From positions 1 through 64,000 of the forward strand of contig JACDGP010000007.1 in assembly GCA_013821605.1 (NCBI GenBank): a DNA stretch of 64,000 bases, in the 5' to 3' direction. Shown here piece by piece: positions 41,392 to 46,139 of the stretch (positions within the stretch are counted from its first letter, which is position 1; every line of letters begins with the position of its first letter). Source of the DNA: Herpetosiphonaceae bacterium. GTDB lineage: Bacteria; Chloroflexota; Chloroflexia; Chloroflexales; Kallotenuaceae. Under the pieces are notes generated by a model. That model did no database searches, was not told the DNA's origin, and saw only the letters and a list, made by a program, of their open reading frames with translations. Made by a program: the position numbers and the translations under genes.

Positions 41392-41649
41392 GCACTCCTA
41401 CTCCTCATCTATACGGAGCAAGACGGCAGGAAGTGTGCCAGACATCGCGCAGCCAGCTCTACGGAAACTCAAAGCTACTAACTGAGCCGCACCAGCAACA
41501 CCGTCAGTATCCTACAGTAGCTGTTTATCAGTTATTCATATACGAATCTGTGGTACACATAACTTTGCCGCCTATGGTATACTGGCAGCACTCTCTGCGA
41601 ATCAACTATCCTTTGAACTGTACCATAACGTGTTTAAGGGCTTTTCCAT
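41392..41649. other. Divergent intergenic region, SDR / NurA
   Basis: 258 AT-rich bases with the NurA promoter near its right end. No gene or strong palindrome recognised. Confidence 0.35.
41575..41583 (+). promoter_or_regulatory. Extended -10 promoter for the NurA-HerA-methyltransferase operon
   Basis: TGGTATACT combines the TG extension with a near-consensus -10. No good -35 at 17 bases, as is allowed with an extended -10. It is 66 bases before the nurA start. Confidence 0.5.
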
Positions 41650-42795
41650 ATGATCGAGCCGCAAAGCTACGAGCAGTTGAAGCAAGAAATTGCAGCTCGT
41701 ATGCTGGAAGACAAAGGACTTCTTGACAAGCTAAGGTCAGAAATCCGACCACTGAGGACCGAGTCCCGACGTATTCAACCTCGTACTACGACTGCCGTAT
41801 CTCTTGTGGGTACCGATGGTGGCAACAACAGTCTCCAATTTGATCCTTTCCTTGTACAGCTTATCCGCGTAGTCGACTCTAGCAACAATGAGTACTGCCT
41901 TGAAGCGATTACCCCGACCACAAATGTATTAAGACTAAGTGCTAGTCAGTTTGATAGTGACGGATCACCTAGAACAGCACTAGGACGGATGATGGCATAT
42001 TTAGGTGTCAAGGATTTGTCACAGATTAGTCATATGATTCGTCCAAGCAATGATAGCTATCCTGCCAGTCCAAGCTGGGTTCAGGTATATCGCGAACTTG
42101 TGGAATGGTCTATTTTGTTTTCTATTATTAGGGAAAAAGATTTCGGGACAGATACTCTGATCGTTTTTGATGGCTTGCTTCGTAGTAAAGTTTTTGCAGG
42201 AGACTTGTTCAAAAAGTATTTGCAGGGTCTTCTAGAAGGTATTGAACAGCAGAAGCGGAAAAACCGCCGCAAAATCTACCTTGCAGGAGTAGCAAAACAC
42301 AGTAAGGTTCTTTCACGTTACCGACTGGCAATGGCACTAGAACAAGTACTTACTACGAATTATCCAGCATATGTGCAAATTCCCCGCGACTTAGAGGAAA
42401 AGTCTTACGTTTGGGCTGAGTACGCGCGTGGAGATGATCGAGTGATAGGAGGCGCGGAGGCTAACAAGTACGTAGGCGGTAAGTTGTTCTTCGTCAAATT
42501 TGGTTCTGGGTCGCGTGACCATGTATGGCCGATTGATATTTTCCTGCCTCAAGTTGTGGATGCACAAACTGTCATTGGTTACATGCTAGCTGACGCGCTT
42601 AATGGTTTTCCCGTCCCTTGCTATCCTCAATGTCTTCAAAAAGCACACGAGAATGCAGCATTAGTCGATTTTGACTTGGATATACTACAAGATCAAATCT
42701 ACGATGCAATCCGCTCAGTGCTCAAAGATGAAGCGCCATCGCTTGACGCATTCCGGTTACAAGACGCTGATCCATCTCAAAGACGATATTCGTGA
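41650..42795 (+). CDS. nurA: NurA-domain nuclease
   Basis: 381 residues. NurA-fold motifs: SLVGTDGGNNSLQFD (metal-binding Asp near residue 54), TLIVFDGLLRSKVF (second Asp near 175), and GVAKHSKVLSRYRL, the 'K.S..L' element of the family. The C-terminal DIFLPQVVDAQTVIGYMLAD and PVPCYPQCLQKAHENAAL also match. NurA forms a ring nuclease that resects DNA ends when bound to the HerA translocase, whose gene follows 12 bases downstream. Base composition is clearly AT-richer than flanking genes, as for the two next genes, which points to common acquisition. In archaea the pair serves recombination; beside a methyltransferase, a restriction-like role is more likely. Confidence 0.82.
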   Translation: MIEPQSYEQLKQEIAARMLEDKGLLDKLRSEIRPLRTESRRIQPRTTTAVSLVGTDGGNNSLQFDPFLVQLIRVVDSSNNEYCLEAITPTTNVLRLSASQFDSDGSPRTALGRMMAYLGVKDLSQISHMIRPSNDSYPASPSWVQVYRELVEWSILFSIIREKDFGTDTLIVFDGLLRSKVFAGDLFKKYLQGLLEGIEQQKRKNRRKIYLAGVAKHSKVLSRYRLAMALEQVLTTNYPAYVQIPRDLEEKSYVWAEYARGDDRVIGGAEANKYVGGKLFFVKFGSGSRDHVWPIDIFLPQVVDAQTVIGYMLADALNGFPVPCYPQCLQKAHENAALVDFDLDILQDQIYDAIRSVLKDEAPSLDAFRLQDADPSQRRYS

Positions 42796-42807
42796 AAGCG
42801 ATTCTTA

Positions 42808-45018
42808 ATGACCGGAATTGAACTTTTTCCCCGGGATCAGGTTATAGGCGTATTTCGCGGTTTTCGAGAGGGCGGCTTAGAGTTTCACGCCGACCTCGTT
42901 CTTCCGTATCGAAATGATTTTCAAAGCTTGCCGATGCACGGGCAATTTTTGCTCGTTCAACTTGAGACTCCTCAGGAAGCTGTCCTTGGGAGAATAGCAT
43001 CGTTCTCATCTGAGGGAAAATTATCGGTAGGGTCAGGTGAGGAGTTTAACATACGTGCAGTTCGCGAGAACCGCACGATTCCTGAAGATTTACGAGAACA
43101 GTACTTGAAATACAAAGTAAATATCCGCGTTCTTGGTGTACTCAGAAATAACCTGAAGGGATCTCTAACTTTTGTTGCATCCCATCGTCGATTACCGCAT
43201 GTGGGGAGTTGCGTTGCATTCCCATCAGGGGAAGTATTGCGAGAAATAGCTGGGCATAACATCGAGAACGGGGCAGAGATTGGTCATTTCGCTCTCGGGG
43301 AGTATATTTACGCAGGTAGTAGTGATAAGTTGAAGATTGACGAGTGGATGCAGATTAAAAGTCCAGAAATACTTATCAAATTTCCGGTTGAGAGCCTTGT
43401 ATCGCGTCGGTCTTTCATCTTTGCGCGAGCGGGATTTGGGAAGTCAAATCTGAATAAGCTCCTTTTCAGCAAGCTCTATGAGAAAACACCGACCGTCGTA
43501 AAACGTGGAGACAAGCACGTTCCGGTTGGAACCATCATCTTTGATCCGGATGGTGAATATTTTTGGCCTGACGATAAGGGACGTCCTGGACTATGCGACG
43601 TTCCGGCCTTGCAAGGCAAGCTTGTAGTATTTACACCTCGCAAAGGGCCGAGCCCATTTTATCAATCCTTTGTAGCCGATGGTATCAGGCTTGATATCCG
43701 GCGGCTGCGCCCTAGCGATGTTATTGCGATCGCACTGCCACCAGAAAAACAAGATCAGCAAAATATTCGGAAGCTCAAGGGGTTAGACCAGGGTCGCTGG
43801 GAACAACTTGTAAACCTCATTGATAAGAGTCACAACCAAACGTCGCTGGATGCCATTGGAAAATTGCTTGATTTGTCCAAGGAGCAAGAGGTGGAGGGTG
43901 TAGCGGCTCGAGCTAACATGACGGTTATCGTTCGGGCACTGCACGACAAAAGTAGTCAGCTTATGGATAAGCTGATCAAGGCTCTCAAGGACGGCAAACT
44001 TTGTGTCGTTGACGTATCTCAAATGCGGGGAGGCCAATCGCTAATATTATCAGGTCTCATACTTCGCAAGATTTTTGACCGTAACCAGCAAGAATTCACA
44101 GCTGCCAATCCTGATACCATTCCCACCATTGCAGTCGTGGAAGAAGCTCAGTCTGTTCTCAACGAGAGAGCTACAGCAGCGGAGCCATACATTACTTGGG
44201 TAAAAGAGGGTAGGAAGTATGACCTGGGTGCATTATTAATTACACAGCAGCCCGGTAGCATTCCCGTGGATATTCTGAGTCAAGGTGACAACTGGTTTAT
44301 CTTTCATCTTCTATCGTCTGCAGATCTAGCAAGTGTCAAGAAAGCCAATGCACATTTCAGTGAAGACTTGTTAAGTGCACTCCTCAATGAGCCAATTCCA
44401 GGCCAAGGCGTGTTCTGGAGTTCTGTGGGTGGTAAACCTTACCCTGTCGCCATTCGCACTTTATCCTTCGAGGAACTGTTCAAAGTGCTGGACCCTCATT
44501 ACAATAAAGCTGCCTGCGAGACTTACGCCTCAAAACTAAAGGAAGAGTTTCAAACGACGCTTGAAGAGACAGTACAAGCTATGCAGCCGCCGCTTGCAGT
44601 GAATGGCAATGGTAATGGCTCAGCTCTGCAAAACGGTCAACCACCCCAGGTATCACCACGCAGATCTCAGAAAACAGACATTCCAGCGATGACTATCAGT
44701 ATGTTCGCAGACACATCTAGTGATGAAAATCCTGATGACGAATCAATTGATGTCCTTAAGGCATATGAAACCAGAGCTATTCAAGCACTTGGGGATGATC
44801 CGCAGTTTAGGAGTAAAGTAAAAGGCGAAGGAATCGCATGGGGCAGCATCAAGCACTTATTAAAGAGTAAACTGCCATCTACACTTGAAGATCAGGATGA
44901 CCGAGCGTACCAACTTGTTAGCAAAGCTCTTACGGAGATTTTAGGACCGCGTGGCGAAGGATGGCATTCATTCGTAAATGGACAAGGCAAAACATATGTG
45001 AAAGCAGGGAAGGGATAG
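42808..45018 (+). CDS. herA: HerA-type hexameric DNA translocase/helicase
   Basis: 736 residues. N-terminal HAS-barrel region, then the FtsK/HerA ATPase: Walker A FARAGFGKSNL near residue 207, TIIFDPDGEYFWPDD (a HerA hallmark after strand 2), Walker B IAVVEEAQSVL near 443, and GRKYDLGALLITQQPGSIP (sensor/arginine region). It pumps DNA through its ring and drives the NurA nuclease. Residues ~600-640 are a Gly/Asn/Gln linker (NGNGNGSALQNGQ) leading to an extra C-terminal domain (AWGSIKHLLKSKLPS, GWHSFVNGQGKTYV) not usual in archaeal HerA; it may bind DNA or the methyltransferase. Middle gene of the AT-rich cassette. Confidence 0.88.
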   Translation: MTGIELFPRDQVIGVFRGFREGGLEFHADLVLPYRNDFQSLPMHGQFLLVQLETPQEAVLGRIASFSSEGKLSVGSGEEFNIRAVRENRTIPEDLREQYLKYKVNIRVLGVLRNNLKGSLTFVASHRRLPHVGSCVAFPSGEVLREIAGHNIENGAEIGHFALGEYIYAGSSDKLKIDEWMQIKSPEILIKFPVESLVSRRSFIFARAGFGKSNLNKLLFSKLYEKTPTVVKRGDKHVPVGTIIFDPDGEYFWPDDKGRPGLCDVPALQGKLVVFTPRKGPSPFYQSFVADGIRLDIRRLRPSDVIAIALPPEKQDQQNIRKLKGLDQGRWEQLVNLIDKSHNQTSLDAIGKLLDLSKEQEVEGVAARANMTVIVRALHDKSSQLMDKLIKALKDGKLCVVDVSQMRGGQSLILSGLILRKIFDRNQQEFTAANPDTIPTIAVVEEAQSVLNERATAAEPYITWVKEGRKYDLGALLITQQPGSIPVDILSQGDNWFIFHLLSSADLASVKKANAHFSEDLLSALLNEPIPGQGVFWSSVGGKPYPVAIRTLSFEELFKVLDPHYNKAACETYASKLKEEFQTTLEETVQAMQPPLAVNGNGNGSALQNGQPPQVSPRRSQKTDIPAMTISMFADTSSDENPDDESIDVLKAYETRAIQALGDDPQFRSKVKGEGIAWGSIKHLLKSKLPSTLEDQDDRAYQLVSKALTEILGPRGEGWHSFVNGQGKTYVKAGKG

Positions 45019-45029
45019 AAGCTTTCAAA

Positions 45030-46139
45030 ATGTCTGACAAAATCATCAATATGTCTTTGAATGCTGTATGCCCGTATTTCACGATGTTCCCACTGAAATT
45101 CCCATATTCGATTCTCAGCCATCATGCTAACCCTGGTGATTGGATTATAGATCCATTTTGTGGCAGAGGAACAACAAATTATGCAGGTCGTCTTTTAGGG
45201 CTTCCGTCCATTGGAATTGATAGTAGTCCGGTCGCAGTCGCATCATCTGAGGCAAAATTAGCGAATGTGGCACCCGATGCTATTATTGAAGCAGCTGAAC
45301 AAATCTTGAGCGAAGTTAAAATCGCGCAGGATGTGCCAACAGGCGAATTTTGGGACTGGGCATTCGATCCCTCTGTGTTGAATACTATCTGCCGCTTACG
45401 TGAAGGATTGATGCGTTCGTGCCTCTTGGACTCTCACAAGGCATTACGAGCTATTCTTATGGGAGCACTGCATGGACCTCGCGGCAAAATACGGCAATCT
45501 TACTTCTCGAACCAATGCCAAAGAACATATGCACCCAAACCGAGATATGCTGTAAAATTCTGGAAAAGCCGAGAGCTACAGCCAGCCTTTGTCGATGTGT
45601 TAGAGATTATCGGGAACCGCGCACATCGATACTATCAACAATTACTACCTTCATGCGGAGGTTACATTCTTCATGGTGACAGTAGAGCACAAGAGACATA
45701 TCTTCACCTTAGCGATGGTCCTAAAATAAAGTGGGTCTTAACCTCCCCGCCCTATTACGGCATGTGTACTTATCTTCCCGATCAATGGCTCAGGCTGTGG
45801 TTCGTAGGTGGACCATCTAATGTTGAATATTCAACGAACGGGCAACTTGAACACTCAAGTGTTGCCGGTTTTTCCGACCAATTGAGAAAAGTCTGGAAAA
45901 ATGTGGGGACAATATGTCGACCAGATGCACGAATGATTATTAGATTTGGTGGAATAAATGTTAGAAATGTTGCACCCATGACTGTGCTGAAGGAATCGCT
46001 CAAAAACTCTGGATGGAAAATTCAGACTCTTAAATCAGCTGGCTTTGCTTCCGAAGGCCGAAGGCAAGCTGTACATTTTTCCAAATCTAGTAATAATGCA
46101 CTTGAAGAGTACGATGTTTGGGCGAAATGGGAAGGGTGA
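45030..46139 (+). CDS. DNA methyltransferase, N4-cytosine/N6-adenine type
   Basis: 369 residues from ATG 45030; the track start 44961 lies inside herA and is possible. Motif X/I region FPLKFPYSIL and WIIDPFCGRGTTNYAG (SAM binding, residues ~40-50) come first, motif IV TSPPYYGM (catalytic) is at ~238, so the order is I then IV with ~190 residues between. SPPY is typical of N4-cytosine methylases of the PF01555 group. C-terminal MIIRFGGINVRNV and GFASEGRRQAVHF fit motifs VI-VIII and the family end. Only 11 bases after herA, third gene of the cassette. It probably marks self DNA against the NurA-HerA machine. Confidence 0.85.
   Translation: MSDKIINMSLNAVCPYFTMFPLKFPYSILSHHANPGDWIIDPFCGRGTTNYAGRLLGLPSIGIDSSPVAVASSEAKLANVAPDAIIEAAEQILSEVKIAQDVPTGEFWDWAFDPSVLNTICRLREGLMRSCLLDSHKALRAILMGALHGPRGKIRQSYFSNQCQRTYAPKPRYAVKFWKSRELQPAFVDVLEIIGNRAHRYYQQLLPSCGGYILHGDSRAQETYLHLSDGPKIKWVLTSPPYYGMCTYLPDQWLRLWFVGGPSNVEYSTNGQLEHSSVAGFSDQLRKVWKNVGTICRPDARMIIRFGGINVRNVAPMTVLKESLKNSGWKIQTLKSAGFASEGRRQAVHFSKSSNNALEEYDVWAKWEG

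Follow-up and report, generated by a model that had tools for sequence, protein, structure and literature searches.

Three adjoining genes on the forward strand of the window (the whole 64,000-nucleotide stretch of DNA analysed here) encode a NurA-like nuclease, a HerA-like DNA translocase and a DNA methyltransferase (MTase) of the N4/N6 type (Table 1). Their ORFs (41650-42795, 42808-45018 and 44961-46139) form a tightly spaced, same-strand operon, in agreement with the preliminary description of this locus. nurA and herA are 12 nucleotides apart, and herA and the MTase gene are 11 nucleotides apart when the latter is taken to start at position 45030. The true MTase start is probably this ATG, 11 nucleotides past the herA stop codon, because homologues start near the corresponding residue and a purine-rich stretch lies ahead of it.

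The cassette has a GC content of 45%, with GC3 values of 38-43% for its three genes, versus 57 ± 1.6% (minimum 53.7%) in 4.5-kb windows outside it. It is therefore AT-richer than both flanks, as was previously noted, and the difference is far beyond local variation. The flanking genes encode a short-chain dehydrogenase and a beta-lactamase-fold hydrolase, and transport and metabolic genes lie farther out. No empty insertion site could be demonstrated, since the relatives in which the flanking genes are present have diverged too far (39-48% identity). The single promoter that had been proposed is plausible at most: there is a candidate sigma-70-type site, but promoter-like sites in this region show no excess over shuffled sequence in a consensus scan.

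Table 1. Positions of the cassette and of related loci. Coordinates in the first five rows refer to the window; the others refer to the locus named.
Feature	Location	Strand	Length	Basis or setting
Possible sigma-70-type promoter	41554..41583	+		TACACA-18-TATACT, TG before second hexamer; consensus scan only
nurA-like nuclease gene	41650..42795	+	381 aa	ORF call, family profile, fold match
herA-like DNA translocase gene	42808..45018	+	736 aa	Pfam DUF87, 1.5e-19
C-terminal winged-helix-like domain of HerA	44734..45018	+	~94 aa	65 homologues, AlphaFold
DNA methyltransferase gene, N4/N6 type	45030..46139	+		ORF open from 44961
Cassette on virus contig	L134:1079-11485			between terminase large subunit and portal genes
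nurA-herA locus without the usual MTase, with other genes upstream	L094:10106-12660			window's phylum
Distant HerA relatives	L141:5879-9843; L142:5943-10074			window's phylum
SF1 helicase-MTase pairs	L143:3679-9077; L150, L151, L152, L153, L154, L155; L176:8986-14336; L177:8986-14345			prophages, conjugative plasmids
GmrSD_N, HEPN and MTase operons	L145:4102-7628; L147:4794-8350			prophage contigs
GmrSD_N-HEPN pair, two MTases and truncated herA	L144:8007-12224			prophage contig

Features of the three proteins

The HerA protein has the Walker motifs of a HerA-type ATPase, as do members of the HerA-NurA complex family. Its Walker A sequence RAGFGKSN and the EEAQ of its VxEEAQ-type Walker B region are invariant among homologues, and WVKEGRKYDL is conserved. 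When the HerA family profile is compared with PDB sequences, the best match is TdpA (2.4e-26), which outranks archaeal HerA (4d2i, 1.8e-16) and also HerA-type proteins from other complexes of known structure. Scores against the NCBIfam anti-phage models are far below their cut-offs (48.3 bits against 800 for HerA_antiphage, and 20 against 850 for HerA_antiphage_2).

The unusual C-terminal domain remarked on earlier is an additional domain that follows the ATPase core and a variable linker. It is conserved among 65 homologues, is modelled by AlphaFold at a mean pLDDT of 92.6 with the topology H-H-b-H-H-b-b, and appears winged-helix-like by this predicted topology alone; against the PDB, sequence comparison gave nothing better than E 0.008 and fold comparison nothing better than 0.1. 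This domain is the obvious candidate for a role in recognising DNA or in loading.

The window's NurA protein has no Pfam match at E<1, and Pfam NurA is matched by 12 of 41 homologues (best 6e-5). The family profile matches a single PDB sequence, TdpB (1.1e-5). Foldseek searches with the AlphaFold model (pLDDT 85.5) rank TdpB first (6.2e-12, TM 0.64) and NurA next (2.1e-4), with nothing besides TdpB and NurA entries below 1e-3. Residues D56, E152 and D174 are invariant in the 41 homologues, and their order is presumably that expected for the catalytic acidic residues of NurA. The protein thus resembles the HerA-NurA complex family in its NurA fold and its conserved acidic residues. Its earlier designation as a "ring nuclease NurA" holds with respect to NurA, by both profile and fold, but the wording is loose, as the ring in question is a ring-shaped dimer and the protein is not a cyclic-oligoadenylate ring nuclease.

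Assignment of the methyltransferase (METHYLTRANSFERASE) to the N4/N6 type is borne out by a match to Pfam N6_N4_Mtase (1.6e-14) and by the motifs DPFCGRGTT (motif I) and TSPPYYG (motif IV), which occur in the opposite order to that of the Pfam model. SPPY motifs are more typical of N4-cytosine enzymes, and this one suggests that the product is N4-methylcytosine, with N6-methyladenine as the alternative. A target-recognition domain is expected between motifs I and IV. This region includes a conserved SNQxxRTYAPKP-type block, and residues 161-212 have 72% consensus identity among 78 enzymes, which places them among the best-conserved parts of the protein. By comparison, the central block of type III Mod proteins has ~20% pairwise identity at similar overall identity in a small control of only three sequences, and no interior variable block comparable to that of this control was found in the MTase family. 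The strong conservation between the motifs, unlike the Mod central block, suggests that the recognition sequence is fixed.

Conservation, linkage and mobility

We compared 83 loci, consisting of 80 relatives (56-69% identity) in species-representative genomes and three from the window's phylum (L092, L094 and L095). The HerA tree names about 17 phyla. nurA adjoins herA at all loci where the contig reaches far enough, and 63 of the 83 have a directly linked MTase gene, usually only a few nucleotides away. It is downstream on the same strand in 38 cases, downstream on the opposite strand in 13, which form one clade (support 96), and upstream in 12. At least four further genomes contain a full-length MTase elsewhere, which in three of them shares the contig at a distance of 9-15 kb. 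At one locus (L079) the contig breaks off, and the genome concerned contains an MTase near a contig start; three others without a linked MTase are contig-edge cases. The three-gene neighbourhood is thus widely conserved, and the absence of the methylase from most genomes, named in the preliminary description as an argument against its own reading, was not found.

At the 12 remaining loci, nurA and herA are intact and there is no MTase of this family. Most of these loci are in draft MAGs, so some may be incomplete. The solo members that were aligned retain their active-site residues, and the HerA tree requires about eight changes of the solo state. These loci suggest that the MTase is not absolutely required: self-marking may sometimes be dispensable, or another mark may serve. 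At one locus without the usual MTase (L094), the genes directly upstream encode a HEAT-repeat protein and an N6_N4 methyltransferase of another kind, and it is possible that a non-homologous enzyme has replaced the usual MTase there.

Evolutionary distances of the proteins are strongly correlated among loci with the common layout, both for HerA and NurA (0.93, null maximum 0.39) and for HerA and the MTase (0.89, null maximum 0.35). Across all layouts the HerA-MTase correlation is lower (0.52), as would fit exchange of the MTase. Within the window's phylum the distribution is patchy: HerA is found in six of 400 genomes (E<1e-200), three of which have a full-length MTase, versus none of the other 394 (P = 2e-6).

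The HerA tree contains near-identical proteins from bacteria of different families and orders. Genes near the cassettes include type I and III R-M, SNF2 helicases, DISARM, BREX, Gabija-type UvrD, Hma and Mrr, according to a gene listing that has no random-region baseline. Other copies are near RepB/ParB-type and phage genes, and some islands have endolysin and tail genes next to them. On one virus contig, all three genes are located between phage genes (Table 1). The defence-island setting anticipated for the cassette is therefore observed, together with at least one phage-borne copy. The plasmid collection yielded no HerA relatives (E<1e-20), and the cultured-phage collection contained neither HerA (E<1e-10) nor MTase relatives. 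When viral sequences were scanned with the NurA profile, no relative could be confirmed, because the short patterns of this profile miss even the copy on the virus contig.

Two other arrangements were observed. At L128, L129 and L130, nurA-herA and a helicase-MTase pair bracket variable cargo (a sacsin-like ATPase and UvrD, or type I R-M), which suggests that there is a hotspot for defence cargo near prophage lysis and tail genes. Two genomes of the window's phylum contain distant (32% identity) HerA relatives with unrecognised genes of ~410 amino acids on both sides. The NurA and MTase profiles recognised none of the adjoining genes, and these loci, which may represent another HerA-based system, were set aside.

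Proposed function and relation to known systems

Tdp systems pair a motor and nuclease with DNA modification, and their sulfur mark is thought to spare host DNA. TdpA and TdpB (structures 8wet, 8wfd and 8y1k) are the best solved relatives of the cassette's motor and nuclease, by profile for both and by fold for NurA, and their homologues are likewise adjacent in the cassette. However, the third gene encodes a base methyltransferase where Tdp has a phosphorothioate enzyme, and none of the ten neighbouring genes in the window, which have metabolic, transport, regulatory or unknown functions, is a sulfur-modification gene. In addition, TdpA stops where the C-terminal domain of the cassette's HerA starts. 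Because a phosphorothioate-modification gene is absent, we regard the cassette as related to Tdp but do not class it as a member.

Archaeal and Deinococcus HerA-NurA have been studied mainly in recombination and end resection. They are two-gene motor-nuclease pairs with the same folds, but lack both a methyltransferase and the C-terminal extension. The earlier comparison of the cassette with archaeal NurA-HerA was sound as to the missing methylase, but overlooked Tdp, which is the closer relative, and the other partners of the MTase. An antiviral role has been proposed for an archaeal HerA-NurA complex in a 2026 study (PMC12977600). HerA also acts with a nuclease or other effector partner in phage defence in HerA-SIR2 and HerA-DUF4297 (PMC11291478; PMC12977600), although these lack a methyltransferase and their effector has another fold. 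HerA/FtsK capture systems and DndFGH similarly recruit a HerA/FtsK motor to nuclease-based defence, but their gene sets differ and NurA is unmentioned in the papers on them (PMC10853773, PMC12839542).

As in type I, II and III R-M systems, a DNA methyltransferase is linked to a DNA-degrading partner, and PADLOC Type II MTase models match. Unlike these systems, the cassette has no REase, Res or HsdR, the nuclease role falls to NurA together with HerA, and the region between the MTase motifs is less variable than a typical target-recognition domain. PADLOC-listed systems include no model for NurA, and HerA and the MTase match generic models only. The NurA-HerA-methyltransferase cassette is undescribed in the literature searched; subscription papers, the Tdp papers and a 2004 HerA-FtsK survey were outside its scope, and an earlier mention is possible.

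We consider it fairly likely that the cassette is a mobile R-M-like defence system whose translocating nuclease spares methyl-marked DNA. This reading, put forward in the preliminary description, draws support from comparative evidence, namely the linkage, the defence neighbours and the phage-borne copy. The MTase would mark a short fixed motif on host DNA. HerA, probably a hexamer, would load at a DNA end or with the aid of its C-terminal winged-helix domain and pump double-stranded DNA into a NurA dimer, so that invading DNA without the mark would be degraded. Methyl-marked host DNA might not be loaded or might stall translocation, as is thought for sulfur marks in Tdp. In this scheme we infer that the complex assembles, that it degrades phage DNA and that the methyl mark protects, and end resection by NurA-HerA is presumed by analogy with relatives. 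The main weakness of the scheme is the solo loci, where another mark may be used, or where NurA-HerA may act only on free ends, with the methyl mark merely sharpening discrimination.

The same 12 intact loci and their recurrence on the HerA tree favour a different, rather unlikely explanation, in which NurA-HerA alone is the whole defence, as a RecBCD-like end-dependent degrader of linear phage DNA or as a HerA-effector system like HerA-SIR2 and HerA-DUF4297. The MTase would then be an accessory, for example one that keeps other restriction systems from attacking the prophages or plasmids that carry it, and its family does also occur on prophages and plasmids without nurA-herA. However, the linkage survives three gene orders with tight co-inheritance, and most other MTase copies have an effector partner of their own.

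It is improbable that the cassette functions in recombination end resection like archaeal and Deinococcus HerA-NurA, with the MTase marking DNA for repair. The fold and motifs common to NurA-HerA are compatible with this role, but patchy occurrence, foreign GC content, cross-phylum transfer, prophage and defence-island sites and the closer resemblance to TdpA/TdpB than to archaeal HerA/NurA argue against it, and a pure recombination role was rejected on distribution and linkage. R-M systems can act as addiction modules, and copies near RepB/ParB-type and phage genes fit a plasmid or prophage module in which MTase loss causes post-segregational killing and defence is a by-product; this seems slightly more improbable still, since many copies are chromosomal among defence genes and the solo loci speak against obligate toxicity.

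If the restriction-like reading is correct, HerA-NurA, long viewed as recombination machinery, would be the effector of a widespread methylation-linked defence. Tdp would then be one case of a broader principle, in which a nuclease-coupled DNA pump checks DNA for a chemical mark, and the cassette would offer a case, open to experiment, in which base methylation licenses a translocating nuclease.

Other partners of the MTase family

A search of viral contigs with the MTase family detected 16 long relatives, most of them without nurA-herA. Nine adjoin a gene, usually convergent, for a protein of ~1,416 amino acids with a C-terminal SF1 helicase (AAA_11/AAA_12) that is DpdJ-like by PADLOC. Conjugative plasmids of Rhizobium and Bradyrhizobium carry a similar helicase-MTase pair in which the gene ends overlap. 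This pair looks like a separate restriction-type system. In two other cases on viral contigs, the MTase gene belongs to an operon that also encodes a HEPN protein and a GmrSD_N (DUF262) protein.

In the MTase tree, the enzymes of one helicase pair (L143) and of both GmrSD-HEPN pairs are nested in the NurA-HerA group, and the nurA-herA loci L013 and L033 carry helicase-type MTases. The MTase family is thus paired with two unrelated effector types besides NurA-HerA, with swaps between modules, which is new here. These swaps imply that the MTase behaves as an exchangeable self-marking part. The hypothesis of an unrelated orphan MTase was rejected on distribution and linkage.

We tentatively suggest, with less confidence than for the defence role itself, that one fixed MTase self-mark is read by at least three unrelated effectors. 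The mark would be a shared currency that explains the exchanges, and an effector cassette would be able to enter any host that is already marked. If true, this would be an example of one self-mark serving several unrelated effectors.

Two further features were noted at these loci. The SF1-helicase protein has, by eye, a RecB/Cas4-like N-terminal signature, and on a prophage contig a related GmrSD_N-HEPN pair lies behind two MTases and a truncated herA.
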